Assembly: GCF_001428365.1 (NCBI RefSeq)
Contig: NZ_LMSH01000002.1
Coordinates: 682,132-746,131, forward strand
Direction: 5' to 3'
Length of the DNA: 64,000 nt
Source of the DNA: Arthrobacter sp. Soil763
Lineage (GTDB): Bacteria; Actinomycetota; Actinomycetes; Actinomycetales; Micrococcaceae
Shown here: positions 14,029-23,056 of the stretch, in pieces
Numbering within the stretch: the first letter of the stretch is position 1
Layout of the letters: each line of letters opens with the position of its first letter
Program-made: the position numbers and the translations under genes
The notes under the pieces: generated by a model
What the model saw: only the letters and a program-made list of their open reading frames with translations
Told to the model about the DNA's origin: nothing
The model's database searches: none

Positions 14029-15273
14029 TCAGGCGGCGGGCTCCTCTTCCGCCGTCGCGCTGTGGCCGGCGCCCTGCTGCAGTTCGGGGGCGGCCACGGA
14101 ACGCGGCGTCACCTCGACGGCGGCGGGGGCCACCAGGCCGGCGGCGTCCATGGCATTGAGCTTCCGGGCTGTCGGCAGCACCCTGGCCTCCAGGGTCCCG
14201 ACCAGGGAGTTGTAGCGGTCTACGGAGGTCTTTAGCGACGAGCCAAGACGCGTGACATTTTCGCCCAGCGTGCCCATGCGTTCGTAGAGCTGCTGCGCGA
14301 GTTCGAAGAGCTCGCGTGCGCTGTCGGTCAGGACGTCCTGCCGCCAGGTGAAGGCCACCGATTTCAGCACCGCCAGCAGCGTCCCGGGGGAGGCAAGGAC
14401 GACATTCCGGGACAGGGCGTGGTCCAGCAGCGCCGGGTCCGCCGAGAGCGCCGCGGCGAGGATCGACTCCGCGGGGAGGAAGCAGACCACCAGTTCCGGC
14501 GCGTTGCCCGGAATGTCCCAGTACTTCTTGTTGCTCAGGGCGTCCACGTGGGCCTTGAGGGCCTTCGCGTGAGCGGCCAGCAACTGCTGCTGGCCGTGCA
14601 GGCTTCCAGCCGGCGCCCTGCCGCCTGCAGGGGCGCCGAGTTCCTGGGCCTCAAGGTAGGCCGCCAGCGGCACCTTCGCGTCGACCACGAGCTGCTTGTC
14701 GCCGGGCAACTGCACCACGAGGTCCGGGCGGACGGTGCCTTCTGAGCCCTGTCCGGAACTGTGCAGCTGCTCGTGGAAGTCAACGTGCCGCAGCATGCCG
14801 GCGGCCTCGACCACCCGGCGCAGCTGCACCTCGCCCCATTGCCCGCGGGCGCTGTTGGACCGCAGCGCGGATTCGAGGGCGTGCGTGGAGCGCAGCAACT
14901 GCTCGTCGGAGAGCCGGGCCTCCTGCAGCTGCTGTGCCAGCTGGCCGTACTGCTCCAGCCGGTCCCGTTCCAGCAGCGAGACCTGCTGCTGCACCGCGGT
15001 GAGCTTTTCCGCCACCGGCGCCAGCGCGCGCAGGACGTTGCCGTCCTGGCTGCGCGCCTGCCCCAGCTCGCGGTTCTGGTCCGCCAGCAGGCGGCGTTCG
15101 GCATCGGCCGCCGCGTACCGGGCGCTGACCTCCGAAAGCCGGGCGGAGACGCCGTCGAAATCCTGTTCCAGTGCCGCGGTGCGGCGGCGGTAGACGACAA
15201 AGGTGAAGGCGGCGCCGGCAACGGCCCCGATCAGCAGCATCAGCAGGGCGAGAATGAGTGCGAAAGCGTCCAT
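14029..15273 (-). CDS. rmuC: RmuC family DNA recombination protein
   Basis: 414 residues. An N-terminal membrane helix (about 4-26) is followed by a long Ala/Gln/Arg-rich coiled coil (about 30-130). The RmuC nuclease-like domain then has RGQWGEVQLRRVVEAAGM, RPDLVVQLPGDKQLVVDAKVPL and a later FLPAESILAAAL. RmuC limits inversion rearrangements in E. coli; its biochemical activity is not settled. The ATG at 15273 is chosen because it opens the membrane helix; the frame continues to 15483 only as antisense of ychF. Convergent with ispH. Confidence 0.85.
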   Translation of the reverse strand: MDAFALILALLMLLIGAVAGAAFTFVVYRRRTAALEQDFDGVSARLSEVSARYAAADAERRLLADQNRELGQARSQDGNVLRALAPVAEKLTAVQQQVSLLERDRLEQYGQLAQQLQEARLSDEQLLRSTHALESALRSNSARGQWGEVQLRRVVEAAGMLRHVDFHEQLHSSGQGSEGTVRPDLVVQLPGDKQLVVDAKVPLAAYLEAQELGAPAGGRAPAGSLHGQQQLLAAHAKALKAHVDALSNKKYWDIPGNAPELVVCFLPAESILAAALSADPALLDHALSRNVVLASPGTLLAVLKSVAFTWRQDVLTDSARELFELAQQLYERMGTLGENVTRLGSSLKTSVDRYNSLVGTLEARVLPTARKLNAMDAAGLVAPAAVEVTPRSVAAPELQQGAGHSATAEEEPAA

Positions 15274-15395
15274 GCCTTCACTCTGGCACGCACCCCTGAC
15301 ACTTTTAGCCAGTGACGCACGGTCACCCGGCATCCCCGAGCGAGGCCGGCGGCGGACGGCGGCCCGCCGCCGCAGGGTACCGCCCCGATTACCGG

Positions 15396-15401
15396 TAGAA
15401 T
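15396..15401 (+). promoter_or_regulatory. -10 box TAGAAT, likely leaderless promoter of ychF
   Basis: TAGAAT lies 8 nt before the GTG at 15410. There is no Shine-Dalgarno in the intervening CAATACTC, so the transcript probably starts at or within two bases of the start codon. Confidence 0.5.
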
Positions 15402-15409
15402 CAATACTC

Positions 15410-16495
15410 GTGGCTCTTACTATTGGCATCGTCGGACTGCCCAACGTCGGCAAATCAACCCTTTTCAACGCACTGACCCGCAACCAGGTGCTCGCGGCGA
15501 ACTACCCGTTCGCGACGATCGAGCCCAACGTCGGCGTCGTGAACCTGCCGGACCCGCGGCTCGAGAAGCTCGCCGCCATCTTCGGTTCCGCCCGCCTGCT
15601 TCCGGCTGCGGTCTCCTTCGTGGATATCGCCGGCATCGTCAAGGGCGCCTCCGAGGGGGAGGGCCTGGGCAACCAGTTCCTCGCGAACATCCGCGAGGCC
15701 GAGGCCATCGCGCAGGTCGTCCGCGTGTTCGATGACCCCGACGTCATCCACGTCGACGGCAAGGTCGACCCCCGCTCCGACATGGAGACCATCAACACCG
15801 AGCTGATCCTCGCCGACCTTCAGACCATCGAGAAGGCCATCCCGCGGATCGAAAAAGAAGTCAAGATCAAGAAGCGCGAGGCCGCTGAACTGGCGGCCAT
15901 CAAGGCCGCCCAGGCGGTGCTGGAGCGCGGAGACACCATCTTCTCCTCGATCAAGAGCGACAAGCTGGAGATGCAGCACCTCAAGGAGCTCGGCCTGCTC
16001 ACGGCCAAGCCCTTCATCTACGTCTTCAACGTGGACGAGGGCATCCTCGGCAGCCCCGAGAAGCAGGAAGAGCTGCGCGCCCTGGTAGCCCCGGCCGACT
16101 GCATCTTCCTCGACGCCAAGCTCGAGGCCGACCTCGTCGAACTGGACGAGGAGGAGGCCCGCGAAATGCTGGAAATGAACGGCCAGGAAGAGTCCGGCCT
16201 GGACCAGCTGGCCCGCGTGGGCTTCCACACCCTCGGCCTGCAGACCTACCTCACTGCCGGCCCGAAGGAGACCCGCGCCTGGACCATCCACCGGGGCGAC
16301 ACGGCCCCGCAGGCCGCCGGCGTGATCCACTCCGACTTCCAGCGCGGTTTCATCAAGGCCGAGGTCGTCTCCTTCGACGACCTGATCGAAGCCGGGTCCA
16401 TGGCCGAGGCGAAGGCCCGCGGCAAGGTCCGGATCGAAGGCAAGGAATACGTGATGGCCGACGGCGACGTGGTGGAGTTCCGCTTCAACGTCTAG
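15410..16495 (+). CDS. ychF: Redox-regulated ATPase YchF (Obg family)
   Basis: 361 residues, the usual length. G1 GLPNVGKST (7-15), switch region [12 protein letters not shown]3-like [20 protein letters not shown], an Obg-family coiled coil (about 130-170) and a C-terminal TGS-like domain ending [14 protein letters not shown] are present. YchF prefers ATP because its G4 is NVDE rather than NKxD. It binds ribosomes and acts in stress responses. The last 29 bp of this gene and its terminator recur downstream at 18503 and 21778. The reading frame here is complete. Confidence 0.95.
16467..16495 (+). repeat. ychF 3'-end direct repeat, copy 1 (att-like)
   Basis: The 29 bp from ACGTGGTGGAGTTCC to CAACGTCTAG at the end of ychF are repeated exactly at 18503-18531 and 21778-21806. 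This is the copy in the intact gene. Confidence 0.85.
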
Positions 16496-16520
16496 TTCCT
16501 GACTTCCTACGTTTTCGGCG

Positions 16521-16554
16521 ATGGCCGCTAAGAACACCTGTTCTTAGCGGCCAT
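16521..16554 (+). terminator. Perfect hairpin terminator after ychF, copy 1
   Basis: A 16-bp perfect stem (ATGGCCGCTAAGAACA with TGTTCTTAGCGGCCAT) with a 2-nt CC spacer, followed by GCGCTTTT. The same hairpin occurs at 18557 and, with one base missing from the left arm, at 21832. Confidence 0.8.
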
Positions 16555-16734
16555 GCGCTTTTCGACCGCGTGCGAGGGTAAGAGTGCGTGAAATTCTGAG
16601 GCGACCGGGTCACCCGCGCGATAGTTTGACGGGCTCGGCCAGCCAAAAGCCCTGCATGGTGCCACGACAGCCAAAGGGGTTTCGCAGACGCAACGGACCC
16701 GGATCGACTGGCCTTATGAAATAGGGTCTGGCCC

Positions 16735-17082
16735 ATGGATATGCAAATAATTATCGCGGCCATGGCGTTGGCGCTTTCTGCGGTTGCCCTAGTGCGCGGG
16801 GAAATACTTCAAAGCCGTCGTGTCTCTGAAGACGCTCAGCAGCGTGCGGTGGAGTATGTCAGGGAAGCCTTGGAAGGAGTCCTAGGTGTCATGGAACACG
16901 CCGACGTTAGGCCTCCACCCAAGGCGGAAATTAGTAGAGTCATGCTCGATTTCGAGCGAACATGTCGACGTTGGGAGCAGCTGCTCCCAACGGGTGCCAA
17001 GCACCTGCGGCTGAGTGTTCGACATGCAATGGCGAACTGCTTCGGGGCCGCCGGCATCGATAGCGGCAGATCCTCGGATTGA
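16735..17082 (+). CDS. Hypothetical small membrane protein, probably frameshifted
   Basis: 115 residues. One N-terminal membrane helix (about 4-20) is followed by a helical region with paired Arg/Glu residues. The end, GIDSGRSSD, looks artificial. A second frame open to 17260 continues with a convincing aromatic-rich domain (see the next entry). I infer one original protein of about 170 residues split by a +1 change near 17060-17085, or two overlapping genes. First gene of islet A; the upstream 239 bp hold the ychF terminator and nothing else recognisable. Confidence 0.45.
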   Translation: MDMQIIIAAMALALSAVALVRGEILQSRRVSEDAQQRAVEYVREALEGVLGVMEHADVRPPPKAEISRVMLDFERTCRRWEQLLPTGAKHLRLSVRHAMANCFGAAGIDSGRSSD

Positions 17083-17260
17083 AGGCTTGGAGATAAGGAC
17101 CTTCGACTCACATTGGTGGGACATCGGCTACACCTATGTCGAGCACGCTCGGGCGCGTTTTGGTCATTGGTTGGTTGAAATTCCACGGAGGCCACTGGTT
17201 ATCGTTCGCTACGACCAGTGGCGAAGCGATGAAGACTATCCATCAACCAACTGGTCTTAG
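17060..17260 (+). pseudogene. Out-of-frame continuation of the 16735 gene
   Basis: Frame 2 here reads DPRIEGLEIRTFDSHWWDIG then YTYVEHARARFGHWLVEI and VIVRYDQWRSDED before TAG at 17258-17260. The density of Trp, Tyr, His and Arg and lack of low-complexity codons suggest real protein. An ATG-like start exists at 17015 in this frame but has no ribosome-binding site. Best read as the C-terminal half of the preceding gene after a frameshift; 17261-17490 then holds no convincing gene. Confidence 0.4.
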
Positions 17261-17490
17261 GCCTAGTGGCAAGCTGGCAGACGCAGCAGGGCGGGATCGC
17301 AGCGGCCCTACGGTCGATGTGCGGGAAGTGAATGGGCAACTGCTTGAGGAACCGATTCGTGTGCTCGGTCGAGCCGGCTGAAGACTGCGAATCTGAGGCC
17401 GAAACTCCTGACGCGAGCTCATTCGAAGAGCCCTCACAGTAAGGCCCACGTGGGGAGCAAGGGATCCAGCCAGGACGTGAAGGTTCTCTA

Positions 17491-17610
17491 ATGCGGGGGA
17501 AGAACCGTCGTCAAGTCATGAAATACTCGTCAATACTCAAACTTGGCCTTATGTTTGTTGAACTGTTTGGTCTAGCTTTCGGGCTGGCATCCTTCCCCAG
17601 AAAGCACTGA
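17491..17610 (+). CDS. Candidate 39-aa membrane peptide
   Basis: ATG at 17491 opens a 39-codon frame ending in TGA 17608-17610. After a basic start (MRGKNRRQVMKYSS) comes a hydrophobic segment ILKLGLMFVELFGLAFGLA (about 15-33), then SFPRKH. It stops 3 nt before the TTG start of the zinc-ribbon gene, so the two are probably coupled. The ribosome-binding site (GAAGG) is modest. Too short for a family call; a start at the second ATG (17518) is possible. Confidence 0.4.
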   Translation: MRGKNRRQVMKYSSILKLGLMFVELFGLAFGLASFPRKH

Positions 17611-17613
17611 GTA

Positions 17614-18435
17614 TTGAAAAAGATTGACGATCTCTATTGTGAAGCCTGTGGTGTGCATTTCTCCGCCAAACCGAAGGCGGGGCCGTTCGGGTTCATGCGG
17701 GCTGGTTGCACAAGTTGTTTGTCGAAGGTCGTCCTTCCGCTAACTACTTCCATGAGGTTAACCTACTGGGCCCTCGTTGTTTTAGGTGCAACCGGTATAT
17801 CGGTGCTATGGATGCGGGGGTATTGGGTTTACTACATTGGGCCCGTTCTAACGATTGCAATTACCAGTCTAGTGATCGATCTCGTGATCAGGTCGGCGGG
17901 CGTCAGGAATGCTACAGGCGCTGATGGTAGCAAGAAGCGGCGTATAAAGAGGTTGATTAGGGAAGTCGCCTGGACGATGGGCGTTGTCACAGCCGTTCAC
18001 ATTGTAGTGGTGTTCGCGGTTGAAACAGCCGAGGTGCACACGGTTACGGATCGGCCAGAGAGCCCAGAGACGTTCACCTCGGAACAGTATCTCACCGGCA
18101 AGTATATTGTTAGACAGGACGATAATCCGGTCTGCCGGGTGGGGCAATACTATAGTGATTGCATTAATGACTATGTCAATCAGTATAACTATTCATGCGC
18201 TGATATTGAGCTGACTCTGTTTAGTTCAGTTGAATGTAAGTCGTACTTGCAAAACATAGACGACATGAAGGCTAAGGATCAGCCAGGTTGGATCGTCTCA
18301 GGCGTCGGAGGTCCCGGGCACCTCAGCCGCAGAGCCGAGGTGTCCAGCCGTGATGTTAGCAACAATGATTATGAGCCTGCCGTAACCCATTCGGCTGTCT
18401 GCTACCTAGGGTTCGTCGGAGAATGTTTACCGTGA
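17614..18435 (+). CDS. Unknown zinc-ribbon membrane protein (islet A cargo)
   Basis: 273 residues from TTG at 17614. An N-terminal zinc ribbon has CEAC at 9-12 and CTSC at about 32-35. Two helices (about 48-66 and 72-92), a basic loop KKRRIKRLIRE and a third helix (about 121-139) follow. The C-terminal half, probably extracytoplasmic, has several Cys (CRVGQYYSDC, YSCADIEL, VECKSYL) that could form disulfides. Codon use is unusually AT-rich (many AAT, TAT, ATA) compared with neighbours, suggesting acquisition. No function recognised. Confidence 0.6.
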   Translation: MKKIDDLYCEACGVHFSAKPKAGPFGFMRAGCTSCLSKVVLPLTTSMRLTYWALVVLGATGISVLWMRGYWVYYIGPVLTIAITSLVIDLVIRSAGVRNATGADGSKKRRIKRLIREVAWTMGVVTAVHIVVVFAVETAEVHTVTDRPESPETFTSEQYLTGKYIVRQDDNPVCRVGQYYSDCINDYVNQYNYSCADIELTLFSSVECKSYLQNIDDMKAKDQPGWIVSGVGGPGHLSRRAEVSSRDVSNNDYEPAVTHSAVCYLGFVGECLP

Positions 18436-18502
18436 TGCCCCTGCACTGTCGCGGATCTCGGTGAGCTTTAAACAGGCGTCCTAGAGGTTATTCGGCTACG
18501 GA

Positions 18503-18531
18503 ACGTGGTGGAGTTCCGCTTCAACGTCTAG
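18503..18531 (+). repeat. ychF 3'-end direct repeat, copy 2
   Basis: Exact 29-bp copy of the ychF 3' end including its TAG. It is preceded by AGGTTATTCGGCTACGGA, which closely resembles the bases before copy 3 but not the ychF sequence before copy 1. It is followed by the ychF terminator copy at 18557-18590. Confidence 0.85.
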
Positions 18532-18556
18532 GTCCTGGCTTCCCAAGATTTCGGAG

Positions 18557-18590
18557 ATGGCCGCTAAGAACACCTGTTCTTAGCGGCCAT
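18557..18590 (+). terminator. ychF-type hairpin terminator, copy 2
   Basis: Identical 34-nt hairpin to the one after ychF. It has no intact gene in front of it other than the 29-bp ychF remnant, which shows it was moved or duplicated with the remnant. Confidence 0.7.
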
Positions 18591-18632
18591 CGTCTTGTGA
18601 GCGTGCTGGTAAGCGAGGAGTTCCGCGCTGTA

Positions 18633-18711
18633 TCAGTCCCATGAAGATTCTGCGGCAAGGACCTGCGCCAGGTCGGTAGGGCGACTCCACAAGGCCAATG
18701 GCCCAACGGGC
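18633..18711 (-). pseudogene. C-terminal remnant of an alpha/beta hydrolase
   Basis: On the minus strand the frame ending at TGA 18633-18635 reads PVGPLALWSRPTDLAQVLAA then ESSWD. The intact hydrolase at 23099-23824 ends with PTGHWPMWSRPADLAHIIAS then EASND. The remnant is therefore a diverged 3' fragment of a homologue, with the rest of the gene gone. The corresponding stretch is missing downstream of repeat copy 3. Confidence 0.6.
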
Positions 18712-18720
18712 TGAGAAATG

Positions 18721-19221
18721 TCATTCGGACGGACGTCGACTGGCCCCGTCCGCCTCCAAACGCTGGCGTGCGGTATTCAGTCCTGGTCCGACCGGGACCT
18801 GGTCGGTAGCTGCTGCCAGCCCGAAAAGCGGCATATCGCTGTACATGCTTTCCCTGCCACCGGCGATCGTCTCGTAGGTCTCGTGCCATACGCCGACGTC
18901 GCCAGTGCCGGCGGATTTGCGCATGAACCGGCGCCAGGGCTCAAGGTGCGGCGCAGACCGGTCCGCCGCGAACCGCTGCAGGTGTTCCGGGCTCTTCCAG
19001 TAGGTGACCATGATGGTGGTCCGGCCGAACCATTGCTGGTAGCCCAGCAACCCGGCCTCCGGCGTCTTGGCCAGGTAGGCAAGCATCTTGGGCATGGCCA
19101 CCCCCACCCGTGCCACCTTCCCGAATTTCCACCACCGGTTAGCACACATCCCGATCAGGAAGACCGTGACCGGGCCCCCGGGAGCGGCGGTGAAACGCCC
19201 TATGTGTACTTGTTCCGCCAT
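18721..19221 (-). CDS. DUF4188 family protein, copy 1
   Basis: 166 residues. The conserved core FLIGMCANRWWKFGKVARVG, GYQQWFGRTTIMVTYWKS and RFAADRSAPHLEPWRRF is that of DUF4188/Monooxy_af470-like proteins, ferredoxin-like-fold proteins with no settled function. It is divergent from the TetR gene at 19276, with operator-like palindromes between them, so the TetR protein probably controls it. By eye about 84% identical to the second copy at 21929. Start ATG 19221 follows GGGGAA. Confidence 0.8.
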   Translation of the reverse strand: MAEQVHIGRFTAAPGGPVTVFLIGMCANRWWKFGKVARVGVAMPKMLAYLAKTPEAGLLGYQQWFGRTTIMVTYWKSPEHLQRFAADRSAPHLEPWRRFMRKSAGTGDVGVWHETYETIAGGRESMYSDMPLFGLAAATDQVPVGPGLNTARQRLEADGASRRPSE

Positions 19222-19234
19222 CGCTTCCCCTGTT

Positions 19235-19262
19235 CATAACAGTGTTACAGAACAGTGTTATG
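19235..19262. promoter_or_regulatory. Operator between DUF4188 and TetR genes, copy 1
   Basis: Two copies of the short palindrome AACAGTGTT, 13 bp apart within CATAACAGTGTTACAG and AACAGTGTTATG, bounded by CATAACA and TGTTATG. It overlaps the likely -10 of the TetR gene, as expected for autoregulation. The same element occurs at 22446. Confidence 0.6.
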
Positions 19263-19275
19263 CAATACTGGTGCT

Positions 19276-19845
19276 ATGGCAAGACCCATAGTTCACGACG
19301 GCAACTTGCGTCGCAGGCTGCTCGACTCCGCAGCCTCCCTGATCGCCCGCGACGGCGCCTCTGTCGTATCGCTGCGCGGTCTTGCCGCTGCCGCGGGGAC
19401 CTCCACGACGGCGGTATATTCACTCTTCGGGGGCAAGACGGAACTGCTGAGTGCCGTGCTCGACGACGGCTTCGCTTCCTTTACTGCCTCGCAACAAGAG
19501 GCAGCCGCTGGCGGCCTCGAAGCATTGGGGCGGGCCTATCGAACCTGGGCGTTGGAGCATCCGGTCCTCTATGGCTTGATGTTCGGCGGCTCACTGCCCA
19601 GTCAGGTGCCGTGCCGGCCGACGCCGGGAGCCGTTGAGCCATCGATCGGGCCGCTGTTCGCCGCGGTGGCTGCAGCGTTGCCCGGAGCCCCGGAGGACGA
19701 GATCGCCTCGATGGTCGGAGTTGTGTGGGGCCAAGTCCACGGGCTGGTGTCACTGGAACTTGCCGGCGCGCCGGCGGCTGGCTGGGCTTGGGATGCGGCC
19801 TACGATGCTGCCCTCCGGCAGATTGGCCGCTCGCTGGGACGCTAG
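19276..19845 (+). CDS. TetR family regulator with WHG-type C-terminus, copy 1
   Basis: 189 residues. HTH: DGASVVSLRGLAAAAGTSTT then AVYSLFGGKTELL (about 26-58). The C-terminal ligand domain has ALGRAYRTWALEHPVLYGLMF, the TetR_C_33/WHG type. I take ATG at 19276 rather than the GTG at 19255, which lies inside the operator; the box ATACT ends 6 nt before this ATG, so the mRNA may be leaderless. By eye about 83% identical to the copy at 22487. Probably represses itself and the divergent DUF4188 gene. Confidence 0.85.
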   Translation: MARPIVHDGNLRRRLLDSAASLIARDGASVVSLRGLAAAAGTSTTAVYSLFGGKTELLSAVLDDGFASFTASQQEAAAGGLEALGRAYRTWALEHPVLYGLMFGGSLPSQVPCRPTPGAVEPSIGPLFAAVAAALPGAPEDEIASMVGVVWGQVHGLVSLELAGAPAAGWAWDAAYDAALRQIGRSLGR

Positions 19846-20133
19846 GGGAGTGCGGCCCGCAGTATGCCGGGGGATCGCGGCGTCGGCCAGCAGTCATGAA
19901 TGGGAGTCTCAAGACGATCGGCGGCGAAATCGTCGGTGTGGTCCCCTCTGCGCCAAGTCTCCACGAACAGTGGCCAACCGTGAGAACGCCAATTGCGATT
20001 GGGGACCTGCTAGTTTCGCCAAGGATGGCTATCTCGAAATCAGGTGTCGTCTCTTGGGAGCAGTGGCTGCCACATGTCCGAAAACAGGGCTCTCAGTTTC
20101 CGCTGGGGGACAGTATGCAAAGAGGGATCGCAG

Positions 20134-20724
20134 ATGATCGATGACAATGAAATGCTGCTGATGCTGCGACTCGAGCCACTTGACCGCTCAGCCAAAACGG
20201 CCTTCGCGGCCGCGTGTGCCCAGCGCCTCGTGCATTTGTCCAACCGGTACTCTCAGCAAGTAGGCGACTCGTTGCGTGAGCAGCGACTCGCCGTCATCGT
20301 CTCGGCGGCCTCGCAAGCAGCCGCTGGGCGGGGCATCGATGCGACCCGAATGAAGGCTGAAGCAGAGGCCATGGTTCCGGACGAGGACGAAGAAGGGTGG
20401 TCGGCAGGTAGAACCTACGCTGGCAACGCCGCAGCCGCTGCCGCCTACGCGCTGCGGACCTGGCTCACCAACGACCCTCAAGAGGCCGCCTGGGCAGCTC
20501 GGCAGCTCTTAGATACGGCAGATCTCGCTTACTCTCAGGCGATCCGCGGCGGCGACCTTACCTCCGAGGATGAGGAAAAAGCATACCTGGAGTCTCCAGT
20601 CTTCCAGTCAGTCACGTTCGCCATCCAGCGCGATCTCGAGGCAATAGAGACTGGCCGCTCGTGGTCCGAGTTGCGTCAGAGAGCCGAATTGGAGGGAAAG
20701 GATTGGGTTGCCTCCATGCCGTAG
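20134..20724 (+). CDS. Unknown helical protein (islet B cargo)
   Basis: 196 residues, predicted nearly all helical, acidic, no membrane segment. The opening LRLEPLDRSAKTAFAAACAQRLVHLSNRY and the later WAARQLLDTADLAY recall the layout of DUF416-type proteins, but the match is weak and I do not assign it. The ATG at 20134 follows AAAGAGGGA; earlier in-frame starts (20044) lack such a site. The 288 bp before it (19846-20133) show no convincing gene. The next gene begins 67 bp later on the same strand. Confidence 0.6.
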   Translation: MIDDNEMLLMLRLEPLDRSAKTAFAAACAQRLVHLSNRYSQQVGDSLREQRLAVIVSAASQAAAGRGIDATRMKAEAEAMVPDEDEEGWSAGRTYAGNAAAAAAYALRTWLTNDPQEAAWAARQLLDTADLAYSQAIRGGDLTSEDEEKAYLESPVFQSVTFAIQRDLEAIETGRSWSELRQRAELEGKDWVASMP

Positions 20725-20791
20725 CGTTTCGGCTGTCCTGTCCGCTAAGCGCCCTTTAGCGGCTGGTGGCGCCGAATGCCATACTTGGCGC

Positions 20792-21700
20792 ATGTCTGGA
20801 AATGCACCCGCCGAGGACAACCAACCGCTGTTCGCGCGGCCAATTCGGCTTGTCGACGGTGTCAACTTCTCCACTTGGCCTGACCTCAAGTGGAGCCGAG
20901 CTAATACCCACATCGCGGCGATGCAATCGAAATTCGGCGAGTGGCACGCCAGCGCGCCCGTATCGGTTGAAGCCGTGTTGCGCGATGACCGCCAAGGAAT
21001 CGACCTGGTTGCCCGCGTTCCACGTGGAATACCGAAGCACGAATGGTCGCTTGATCTCGGCGATGCGTTGCACAACCTCCGCAGCGCATTCGACGCTGTG
21101 GCATGGGGTATGGCCCACTTCAACGATGCGCAGCCCACTCGGCCGAAGAATGTCACCTTCCCAATCTGCGAGGATGAAAAGCGGTGGAAAGAAGCAGTCA
21201 AGGCTTGGATCGGCGATATACACCCGGCGTTCCAAGAGCGGCTACGGATCATGCAGCCGTTCACCTATGCGTCTGGCGGCCTGACAGTATTGTCGATGCT
21301 CCACGACCTCGACATCCAGGACAAGCATCGCGAGATCTTGACGGTCTCGGCTGACCTGCATTCGGTTAATCTGTCCGGATCATTCGAATACGAGAACCAC
21401 GACACCGCAGCCATGCCACGGGTGGAGATGTACTCCGATATCAAGTTTGCCGATGGTGTGGTGCTCGGGACAATCCACGCTGGAGCGCACATTCGGATGG
21501 TCGGTGAGATGATCCTTCGCCCAGAGATCAAGGTGCAGTTGATCTACGAGAGCGCTGCGCACGATGTTGTACCGATGCTCCAGCAGTTTGCCGTGGAGAC
21601 TCGGCGTTGCCTCGACATCCTGATGTCTGGACTTGCTGAGCCGGACGAATCAGAAGAGGCGGAATGGACGCCGATGGAGGTGGGACCCCACTCTGCGTAG
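20792..21700 (+). CDS. Unknown soluble protein with DALHNLRSAFD motif (islet B cargo)
   Basis: 302 residues. The motif LGDALHNLRSAFDAVAWGM (about 88-106) is found in many uncharacterised bacterial proteins, followed by KNVTFPICEDEKRWK and HDLDIQDKHREIL, where the His/Asp/Lys-rich DxxDKHR is conserved in the same group. No signal peptide or membrane helix. The C-terminus is acidic (EPDESEEAEW). Likely co-transcribed with the gene at 20134. Function unknown; the helical HxLR region may be HEPN-like, but that is speculation. Confidence 0.65.
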   Translation: MSGNAPAEDNQPLFARPIRLVDGVNFSTWPDLKWSRANTHIAAMQSKFGEWHASAPVSVEAVLRDDRQGIDLVARVPRGIPKHEWSLDLGDALHNLRSAFDAVAWGMAHFNDAQPTRPKNVTFPICEDEKRWKEAVKAWIGDIHPAFQERLRIMQPFTYASGGLTVLSMLHDLDIQDKHREILTVSADLHSVNLSGSFEYENHDTAAMPRVEMYSDIKFADGVVLGTIHAGAHIRMVGEMILRPEIKVQLIYESAAHDVVPMLQQFAVETRRCLDILMSGLAEPDESEEAEWTPMEVGPHSA

Positions 21701-21777
21701 CGGCTGGTGTCCAGACGCTGCGTACGGATGAGGCGGGCCTGAGCGGCGGCCTCTGCGCCAGGTTATTCCGTGACGGA

Positions 21778-21806
21778 ACGTGGTGGAGTTCCGCTTCAAC
21801 GTCTAG
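21778..21806 (+). repeat. ychF 3'-end direct repeat, copy 3
   Basis: Exact 29-bp copy of the ychF 3' end. The preceding AGGTTATTCCGTGACGGA matches the bases before copy 2 at about 15 of 18 positions, so the repeat is part of a longer shared junction. Confidence 0.85.
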
Positions 21807-21831
21807 GTCCTGGCTTCCTAAGATTTCGGCG

Positions 21832-21864
21832 ATGGCCGCTAAGACACCTGTTCTTAGCGGCCAT
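21832..21864 (+). terminator. ychF-type hairpin terminator, copy 3 (one base lost)
   Basis: Same hairpin as at 16521 and 18557 except that the left arm reads AAGACACC instead of AAGAACACC, leaving a one-base bulge. This suggests relaxed selection on this copy. Confidence 0.65.
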
Positions 21865-21928
21865 CGTCTTGTGAGTGTGCTGGTAAGCGAGGAGTTCCGC
21901 GCTGTATGGCCGCGCGGGCTGTGAAATC

Positions 21929-22432
21929 TCATTCGGGCGGACGTCGACTGACCCCGTCCGCCTCCAAACGCTGGCGGGCGGTGTTCAAGCCTGCTCCCAC
22001 CGGGACATGCCCGGTAGCGGCTGCCAGCCCGACGACCGGCATGTCGCTGTACACGCTTTCCCTGCCACCCGGCATCGTCTCATAGGTCTCGTGCCACACG
22101 CCGATGTCCCCGGTGCCGGCTGATTCGCGCATAAACCGGCGCCAGGGCTCAAGGTGCGGTGCCGAACGGTCGGCCGCGAACCGCTGCAGATGCTCCGGGC
22201 TTTTCCAGTAGCTGAGCATGATGGTGGTCCGCCCGAACCATTGCTGGTAGCCCAGCAACCCGGCTTCCGGATCCTGGGCCAGGTGGGCCAGCATCCTGGG
22301 CATGGCCGCGCCTACCCGTGCCACCTTCCCGAACTTCCACCACCGGTTCGCGCGCATTCCTATCAGGAAAACCGTCACCGGGCCGTCCCCGGGTTCTGCG
22401 GTGAACCGCCCTGTGTGCACTTTTGCCGACAT
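21929..22432 (-). CDS. DUF4188 family protein, copy 2
   Basis: 167 residues, same family as the gene at 18721 (FLIGMRANRWWKFGKVARVG; GYQQWFGRTTIMLSYWKS). Differences from copy 1 are spread along the length, about 26 positions, which argues against a recent duplication. ATG at 22432 has a strong AGGAGG site. Divergent from the second TetR gene across the same type of operator. This copy is probably the resident locus, because it is followed by the intact hydrolase. Confidence 0.8.
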   Translation of the reverse strand: MSAKVHTGRFTAEPGDGPVTVFLIGMRANRWWKFGKVARVGAAMPRMLAHLAQDPEAGLLGYQQWFGRTTIMLSYWKSPEHLQRFAADRSAPHLEPWRRFMRESAGTGDIGVWHETYETMPGGRESVYSDMPVVGLAAATGHVPVGAGLNTARQRLEADGVSRRPPE

Positions 22433-22445
22433 GTGTCCTCCTCGT

Positions 22446-22473
22446 CATAACAGTGTTATGAAACAGTGTTATG
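22446..22473. promoter_or_regulatory. Operator between DUF4188 and TetR genes, copy 2
   Basis: CATAACAGTGTTATG followed by AAACAGTGTTATG: two AACAGTGTT palindromes 14 bp apart, conserved in arrangement with 19235-19262 although the flanking genes have diverged. TAATAC at 22474-22479 could be the -10 of the TetR gene. Confidence 0.6.
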
Positions 22474-22486
22474 TAATACTGGTGCT

Positions 22487-23056
22487 ATGGCAAGACCTGT
22501 AATCCACGACGAGAGCCTGCGTCGCAAGCTGCTCGACACTGCAGCCATCCTTATCGCGCGGGATGGTGGTGGCTCCGCGTCGCTGCGCAGTATCGCCGCT
22601 GCCGCCGGCACGTCGACGACGGCGGTGTATTCGCTCTACGGGGGCAAGGCGGAACTGTTGACTGCCGTACTCGACGACGGCTTCGCTTCCTTTGCCGAGG
22701 CCCAACAAGAGGCCGCTTCTGCCGGCCTCGAAGCGTTGGGCAGGGCCTACCGAACCTGGGCGCTGAAGCATCCGGTCCTGTACGGCCTGATGTTCAACGG
22801 CGTTCTCGCCAGCCGGGTGCCGTGCCGGCCGACGCCAGGAGCCGCTGAGCCCTCGATCGCACCGCTGTTCGCTGCGGTTGCAGCAGCGCTGCCCGGAGCA
22901 GCGGACGACGAGGTCGCCTCGATGGTCGGCGTCGTTTGGGGCCAGGTCCACGGGTTGGTGTCACTGGAACTGGCCGGTGTGCCGGCGCCTGGCCGGAGTT
23001 GGGATGCGGCCTATGATGCCGCCCTTCGGCAGATTGGCCGCTCGCTCGGACGCTGA
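22487..23056 (+). CDS. TetR family regulator with WHG-type C-terminus, copy 2
   Basis: 189 residues. The HTH SLRSIAAAAGTSTT then AVYSLYGGKAELL is nearly identical to copy 1 in the recognition helix, so both regulators should bind both operators. The C-terminal part has ALGRAYRTWALKHPVLYGLMF. The start at 22487 matches copy 1; an in-frame GTG at 22466 lies inside the operator. Similarity with copy 1 ends at the stop codon. The hydrolase converges from downstream. Confidence 0.85.
   Translation: MARPVIHDESLRRKLLDTAAILIARDGGGSASLRSIAAAAGTSTTAVYSLYGGKAELLTAVLDDGFASFAEAQQEAASAGLEALGRAYRTWALKHPVLYGLMFNGVLASRVPCRPTPGAAEPSIAPLFAAVAAALPGAADDEVASMVGVVWGQVHGLVSLELAGVPAPGRSWDAAYDAALRQIGRSLGR

Follow-up and report, generated by a model that had tools for sequence, protein, structure and literature searches.

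Staphylococcal cassette chromosome (SCC) elements insert at the 3' end of rlmH and keep this gene intact, integrons collect small, exchangeable cassettes into arrays at a single site of entry in the chromosome, and the streptococcal cis-mobilizable elements (CIMEs) are islands bounded by att sites that have no integrase of their own and derive from integrative and conjugative elements (ICEs) with tyrosine integrases. Here we analyze the 3' end of the gene ychF in Arthrobacter sp. Soil763, within a stretch of 64,000 nucleotides (contig NZ_LMSH01000002.1, positions 682,132 to 746,131; hereafter the window, in whose own numbering positions are given), where two consecutive blocks, or islets, are delimited by copies of the end of ychF. 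We consider it quite probable that these blocks are integrase-less tandem cassettes, likely inserted by a large serine recombinase (LSR) acting in trans. A site-specific cassette array at ychF is well supported by the sequences compared: they contain the junctions, empty or alternative states of the locus, recurring cassettes with their own left half, a half-site by an LSR, and LSRs near rewritten ychF ends. From these we infer movement in trans, an LSR as the mover of the window's cassettes, a circular form and the pairing of sites proposed below.

As in SCC and the enterococcal cassette chromosome (ECC), an LSR is the likely agent of insertion, the end of the target gene is restored, and tandem or composite arrays with several att copies occur, as they do in the window. 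Several attR copies, and inverted repeats in attR, are among the features described for ECC and complex SCC (PMC6222049). The nearest named NCBIfam model of the LSR family at ychF is that of CcrB (NF047343), but the LSRs score 80 and 63 bits against a cut-off of 900, the window islets have no ccrA/B/C-type recombinase gene, and the target is the ychF 3' end instead of rlmH. In contrast to SCC, the hosts are here Actinomycetota, the segments are mostly of 0.6-5.7 kb and the cassettes carry synonymous YchF codons. The ychF system works like SCC without being a member of it. With the large serine integrases of phage type (phiC31, TP901-1, SPbeta), some of whose solved structures are relatives of the LSR, it shares the domains PF00239 and PF07508 and an attP half-site of about 25 bp. 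However, the 60 matching phage records were all below 60% identity (about 29-31% for the 15 listed), viral contigs had no exact junction match, and no phage structural family was matched by any of 20 cargo proteins. The arrays recall integrons by their small exchangeable cassettes, some with toxin-antitoxin or defense genes, and their one entry site, but the window islets have neither a tyrosine recombinase domain nor intI beside the array, and it is a housekeeping gene whose end serves as the site. Like CIMEs, the islets are bounded by att sites and lack an integrase; unlike them, the system comprises many unrelated cassettes of one to three genes and an LSR half-site. Compared with the LSR-bearing elements at ychF itself, the window has the same arm (P arm, see below) and ychF end but no LSR adjoining the arm. 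Among the matches listed in the open-licence literature, neither cassettes nor serine recombinases were described for the 3' end of ychF. The site used by pneumococcal prophages near ychF lies upstream of the gene (PMC8637289, PMC10383233), the Brevibacterium island BreLI uses another gene (PMC6579920, PMC5719810), and the main text of an LSR survey has no mention of ychF (PMC10083194).

The ychF gene (15410..16495, + strand, 361 aa) is the host gene and its 3' end the attachment site. Its last 29 bp, ACGTGGTGGAGTTCCGCTTCAACGTCTAG, occupy 16467-16495 and recur exactly at 18503..18531 (copy 2) and 21778..21806 (copy 3), both on the + strand; since the 29-mers are exact, a chance origin is excluded. 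Copy 3 is the last junction of the window, and we assign it the likely role of displaced ychF end. Copies 2 and 3, but not copy 1, are preceded by AGGTTATTC...ACGGA (18485-18502 and 21760-21777). A 23-nt arm, AGGTTATTCnGnnACGGAACGTG, is common to both and lacking from intact ychF; we call it the P arm. Its two instances (+ strand), AGGTTATTCGGCTACGGAACGTG at 18485..18507 and AGGTTATTCCGTGACGGAACGTG at 21760..21782, form the right ends of cassettes 1 and 2 and are likely recombinase half-sites. The P arm pattern AGGTTATTCnGnnACGGAACG followed by the ychF 3' end was matched at 15 of 15 fixed positions in each case (18485-18531, 21760-21806), and these are the two arm-plus-end junctions of the whole genome (up to 3 mismatches). 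The ychF-side site (16448..16495, +) would consist of a B arm, a crossover dinucleotide GT that we place at 16472-16473, and the half encoding the rest of VVEFRFNV* (the asterisk standing for the stop codon). Measured from crossover to crossover on the + strand, islet 1 covers 2,036 bp (16474..18509) and islet 2 covers 3,275 bp (18510..21784). An inverted repeat, ATGGCCGCTAAGAACA..TGTTCTTAGCGGCCAT, follows 25 nt downstream of all three copies (16521..16554, 18557..18590 and 21832..21865, +), the first of these hairpins belonging to a left-end block common to many cassettes of the genus.

The preliminary description, made from the window alone, had already reported the two distant copies of the 29-bp end, the stretch of about 18 bp shared upstream of them and absent from ychF, and the lack of an integrase, all of which we recovered: the genome's four PF00589 and six PF00239 matches lie outside the window (G000:C2:682132-746131), which has no recombinase domain, and no PF00589 match falls between ychF and the last junction. 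The hairpin with a 16-bp stem that it had placed behind each copy was also found three times, but the third lacks one A. Its designation as a terminator was not sustained; a terminator consensus scan returned three terminator-like sites in the window, none of them at a hairpin, and behind hairpin 1 there are only four T residues within ten bases. The likeness of copies 2 and 3 extends to the upstream arm, as described, but goes further than had been noted: behind each lies a divergent monooxygenase/TetR gene pair (18721-19845 and 21929-23056), the two pairs being 84% identical over 1.15 kb.

We used the ychF end as query over 59 genomes and found second copies behind ychF in several of them. 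From 53 relatives we took stretches reaching as far as 20 kb behind ychF, of which 50 had a ychF end that gave the orientation and 3 could not be oriented. Two kinds of junctions were recovered: type A has the arm of the window, and in type B the end is a different one and the core is shifted. Second copies in some genomes (e.g., G004, G022, G044; G and L numbers are our handles for genomes and loci) match neither type well. Type-A arm-plus-end junctions (up to 3 mismatches) were present in 24 of 206 genomes of the genus, with none in the reversed control. Repeats away from ychF, which the preliminary description had regarded as speaking against integration at this gene, are absent from the window's own genome (G000) and in the minority elsewhere: the junction lies on the contig and strand of ychF within 35 kb in 18 of the 24 genomes, 76 kb away on the same strand in G104, split between contigs in G224, and away from ychF in four (G068, G094, G141, G143), while G211 and G215 have additional matches not joined to ychF. 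Beyond the genus genomes, the exact junction pattern was found in 28 stretches (27 records) of named actinobacteria, from Arthrobacter, Pseudarthrobacter, Kocuria, Nesterenkonia, Brevibacterium, Dermabacter, Brachybacterium, Demequina, Corynebacterium and Acidipropionibacterium. Viral contigs gave no exact match, and plasmid and phage records gave one and two short matches, respectively, to the ychF-end part of the query.

The same spot is empty or otherwise filled in relatives. In G193, G216 and G215 (contig C18), about 700 nt counted from the stop codon of the last junction align at 89-93% to the DNA behind the single intact ychF of G019; the remaining arrays match G019, G094, G020, G002 or G024 less completely. 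These empty sites join exactly at the ychF stop. Both neighbours of the array are common to G000, G018 and G201, which have two, four and one segments, respectively, between ychF and the monooxygenase/TetR pair; between those neighbours, G000 and G018 have just 32 and 59 nt in common, at the ends, and G201 shares nothing at E 1e-5. Segments with unrelated cargo are in this way alike at their ends only. No relative was found that combines the monooxygenase/TetR neighbour with an empty site; only other cargo was seen beside it. On this comparison, the ychF 3' end is an integration hotspot for gene cassettes, common to several actinobacterial genera. The site-specific integration restoring ychF, and the tandem nature of the islets, as originally proposed, agree with these empty sites, with the other cargo between the same neighbours and with the tandem arrays seen in several species, and the arrangement is not fixed among relatives.

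We delimited 54 segments between neighbouring sites, ranging from 570 bp to 33 kb, of which 45 do not exceed 5.7 kb; one of the 54 ends at a G044 junction with an arm score of 6/15, which is doubtful and was not used as evidence. Some cassettes recur as a whole. The cassette shared by G081 and G216 (914 aligned bp, 96.1% identity) has both ends in att copies, and its left half, CGCTTTAACGTCTGA, is identical in both genomes although the ychF ends of the hosts differ. A short-chain dehydrogenase gene is present in G014, G030, G147, G194 and G211; with the left half TTCCGGTTTAACGT, its cassette stands first behind ychF (G014, G194) or inside the array (G147), and the displaced ends there differ. 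G147 and G181 have a polyketide-cyclase-like gene in common, and a HigB-type cassette (a Pfam assignment made on L157 alone) has DNA relatives at 74-79% in stretches from Brevibacterium casei, Acidipropionibacterium and Arthrobacter. Because cassettes recur whole, each with a left half of its own and a junction at either end, in different species and at different places in the arrays, we suggest from their sequences that they have moved as units.

The left halves also encode the end of YchF. VVEF[RK]FNV* was encoded at 47 of 77 P-arm matches, which were chosen by the arm (score at least 11/15) and the four next bases; most of the loci searched had themselves been retrieved with the ychF-end pattern. 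The K variant comes from Corynebacterium and Dermabacter copies. In the last five YchF codons, which lie outside the fetch pattern, 143 of 208 changed codons were synonymous against 20% expected without selection (p = 5e-52, a value that makes the case look too strong because the copies are related). We read these synonymous codons as a sign that the cassettes have stood adjoining ychF.

Evidence for the recombinase came from loci with LSR genes. In Brevibacterium casei (L174), the gene of a 514-aa protein with PF00239 and PF07508 begins some 37 nt to the left of the junction and reads away from it, and 5' remnants of such genes (the first 59-85 codons) stand at the same place in L157, L164, L165, L166 and L170, so that an intact LSR or its remnant adjoins the ychF-type junction in 6 of the 28 named stretches. 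We scored 499 LSR relatives, the 120 listed being actinobacterial where the source is named. The P arm was present 13-21 nt upstream of the LSR start in 10 of 30 LSR loci (12-19 of 19 positions; 0-13 of 300 shuffles scored as well) and was not seen in the other 20. The surroundings of 11 of 20 LSRs contained ychF, and in 10 of these 11 the YchF end was replaced by a foreign tail (RHGITSAAQGKK*, RHGITSASQGKK*, RHGG[QA]SGSGKK*, R[ST]GLTSGGKK*, RSGSASKR*, RHNTTSPQKK* or RFNATGSGNK*), L218 being the locus that keeps FRFNV*. LSR elements can thus be seen to insert in ychF, as far as their sequences tell. Since the P arm adjoins the LSR start in the former 10 loci and the YchF tail is rewritten in the latter 10, the arm is best read as the half-site of an LSR family, in agreement with the earlier view that the stretch upstream of copies 2 and 3 is an element end. 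Beyond that view, we name a likely recombinase together with its half-site and show how widely the family extends.

Away from ychF, symmetric P-P' sites of the form arm-GTGGTGGA-inverted arm were found in L139 (G141:C1:2591469) and L140 (G068:C20:28636), and their right halves encode RHGITSAGQGKK* and RHGITSASQGKK*, of the same kind as the foreign tails. As these sites encode element-type tails, each looks like the complete attP of the LSR family. Both loci adjoin genes that appear by reading of the sequence to be restriction or defense genes (GmrSD-, Dam- and HsdM-like). Beside six more distant LSRs or their neighbours (L217, L220-L224), compared with a pattern anchored at GT, the left arms differ, and the point where ychF identity breaks off is GT itself or lies one to two bases to its left; GT was taken as the crossover because ychF identity ends there and because the symmetric sites are centred on it. 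To the left of GT, conservation extends over 25 nt and then stops (59 copies), and a 25-bp attP half-site is among the features given for this enzyme class (PMC3783163).

We propose the following mechanism. The left end of a cassette would bring its own codons for the last YchF residues, VEFRFNV*, and its right end the P arm of about 25 bp. The circular cassette would present a P-arm/ychF-end site and recombine with the end of ychF at GT; ychF would take up the codons of the cassette and stay functional, whereas its old end, pushed behind the cassette, would become the junction. Repeated insertion would yield arrays. Elements that have a recombinase gene of their own use this spot as well and rewrite the YchF tail (e.g., RHGITSAAQGKK*). 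In L126 (G191), ychF ends with FRFNV* and is followed by CTGCGGGCCAGGGCAAGAAGTAG, resembling the rest of an LSR-element tail; this locus could be an intermediate between P' and ychF-like left halves.

Several observations weigh against this interpretation. The gene pair beside the array has a diverged counterpart inside islet 2, which would not be expected from simple insertion of cassettes. The dehydrogenase gene of G030 and G211 is found further inside a segment that is longer and has a different left half. The LSR elements bring a P' half whereas the small cassettes bring a ychF-like one, and recombination of a P-B' circle with ychF differs from the textbook reaction between attP and attB. 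The A118 and Ccr enzymes are mentioned as being active between two attP sites (PMC3783163). The close locus L178 (83% to P0007, a 504-aa LSR apparently from Arthrobacter hankyongi I2-34) has no arm, and the arm of the close LSR loci L175-L177, L179, L180, L182-L184 and L186 has no ychF end behind it, so these elements either sit elsewhere or have a decayed other half. Finally, with P0007 as query, neither the window's genome nor 204 genomes of the genus (up to seven first-look candidates scored per genome) contained an intact close LSR, the best matches in the genus being a full-length one at 37% and a C-terminal fragment at 51%. The same was true of the window's genus when 395 genomes of the family were searched with P0007 (best few candidates per genome) and 15 genomes with PF00239; viral contigs gave no confirmed LSR locus, and plasmid and phage records distant LSRs only. 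Because the islets lack a recombinase and these 204 genomes lack an intact close LSR, the window islets look like orphan cassettes, probably stranded unless an LSR enters.

The most probable of the alternatives is that the junctions are left by past insertions of LSR elements whose recombinase and left half were lost and whose ychF was repaired by homologous recombination, so that the islets are relics that never moved as units. The remnants of LSR 5' ends (about 59-85 aa) in which several cassettes terminate on the right, the rewriting of ychF by LSR elements together with the missing close LSR in the genus, and the imported gene pair of islet 2 could all be accounted for in this way. It leaves aside, however, the complete cassettes described above, which reappear in other species and elsewhere in arrays with a junction at either end and a left half of their own, and we hold it to be unlikely. 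The insertion of integrase-less cassettes in trans remains our preferred explanation, and the second monooxygenase/TetR copy is perhaps best explained as cassette cargo or as ychF-flanking DNA of another species.

The end of ychF is also the target of tyrosine integrases, so that two unrelated recombinase classes use it. The preliminary description had suggested looking for integrase genes beside ychF elsewhere, and such genes do occur, namely the LSR at the ychF-type junction of L174 and, in G016 and G033, type-B islands of 15-16 kb (the L043/L037 pair, loci of G016 and G033) with a tyrosine integrase adjoining ychF. This integrase is a 368-aa frame directed toward ychF, and 31 nt separate its end from that gene. 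An integrase occupies the corresponding position in G163, and in G104 one directly follows a P-arm junction. These frames would make a tyrosine integrase a candidate mover of the cassettes, but the start of the distal type-B repeat is shifted to the right by about 9 nt (GTTCCGCTTCAACGT) and a different end stands before it (ATAAGGTAC), the P arm adjoins LSR genes instead, and the cassettes ending in AATTTAGATTCAATGT have no type-B core. We searched PF00589 in 15, 21 and 23 genomes and compared the matches with junction positions for the 15- and 21-genome sets; among the matches listed, none lies inside P-arm segments of the large arrays (G143, G147, G181, G193, G211). We rejected this candidate as very improbable, since by their ends the four integrases belong to separate type-B islands. 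Equally improbable are segmental duplications of the ychF 3' region by homologous recombination, later refilled without any site-specific recombinase, which would suit the hairpin and the 1.15-kb gene pair shared by copies 2 and 3, as well as the identity of the window pairs (84%, against 86% between the right-hand copy and G018, as after import from a third species), but not a P arm without source in ychF and conserved across genera, segments of unrelated cargo alike in their ends only, or empty sites joining exactly at the ychF stop.

The cargo is diverse. Seventeen of 20 chosen proteins matched Pfam families and three did not, the families including HigB, zeta toxin, PIN, GmrSD, ApeA/HEPN, NB-ARC/TPR, SMC-like ATPase, helix-turn-helix, and metabolic or transport proteins; scans of 20 cargo proteins for phage structural families gave no match. 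Against PADLOC, four of ten chosen proteins matched (E up to 0.001) and six did not; the SMC-like ATPase matches a candidate system, whereas the NB-ARC/TPR protein has no match. We see about even chances that these arrays sample an actinobacteria-wide pool of small cassettes (toxin-antitoxin, anti-phage, metabolic) that a family of trans-acting LSRs captures and shuffles at the ychF 3' end in an integron-like manner, each cassette carrying synonymous last codons of YchF so that the first one keeps ychF intact. The analysis names a ychF hotspot, with an att half-site at base resolution and a recombinase family using the site, and offers an explanation for the odd repeats of the ychF end. It makes the spread of integrase-less cassettes testable and provides candidate integrases whose landing site in the genome is conserved, for use in actinobacterial genetics. 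Because the cargo includes HigB, zeta toxins, GmrSD, ApeA-like proteins, an SMC-like ATPase and NB-ARC/TPR proteins, mining of ychF neighbourhoods may yield new small defense and addiction modules.

The genes of the window islets themselves are mostly without assigned family. Islet 1 contains open reading frames (ORFs) of 115 aa (16735..17082, +) and 273 aa (17614..18435, +), neither with a Pfam match above cut-off or a PADLOC match. Islet 2 contains copy A of the monooxygenase (18721..19221, -; PF13826) and of the TetR regulator (19276..19845, +; PF00440, PF13305), an ORF of 226 aa (20044..20724, +) again without Pfam or PADLOC match, and an ORF of 302 aa counted from ATG (20792..21700, +) without family match. 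For the Pfam search, the latter was taken in a version of 330 aa beginning at 20708, and for PADLOC and the search for relatives in one of 304 residues beginning at 20786. Its relatives occur in 7 of 395 family genomes including its own, and no P-arm site was found in the 2.9-3.9 kb fetched around each of those in the 6 of 394 others (best 12-14/22, 304-residue query). PADLOC matched none of the six window cargo proteins scanned.

To the right of the array lies copy B of the pair (21929..23056, monooxygenase on the - strand and TetR on the + strand), which also stands behind the last clear junction in G018 and G201. Just past the TetR gene, a decayed junction-like site encoding VADFRLEA* was seen in G201 (L229, 14/22) and an inverted one in G018 (L226, 15/22). 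Given these sites, the pair may be, to judge from sequence, old cassette cargo instead of the original neighbour. Behind the pair in the window, junction-like sites up to 25400 score at most 12/22, and the stretches of G072 and G025, which have the pair, are without such a junction on either strand (best 15/22 and 14/22).

Some arrays were larger or repetitive. Segments of 18-33 kb extend from ychF or the first cassette to a junction in G143, G147, G181 and G193 (L115-L118, L129, L130, L136, L137); those of G143 and G193 contain seemingly conserved chromosomal genes, presumably the DUF3090 neighbourhood, as though the array had taken up a part of the chromosome. In Arthrobacter hankyongi I2-34 (L155, L172, L205), the array has repeated PhnA-domain cassettes, apparently together with P0007. 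The 9.8 kb adjoining ychF are 97% identical between G081 and G215, which suggests recent exchange of a large segment. In the window, the gene directly upstream of ychF (14029-15483, -) appears to be rmuC-like.

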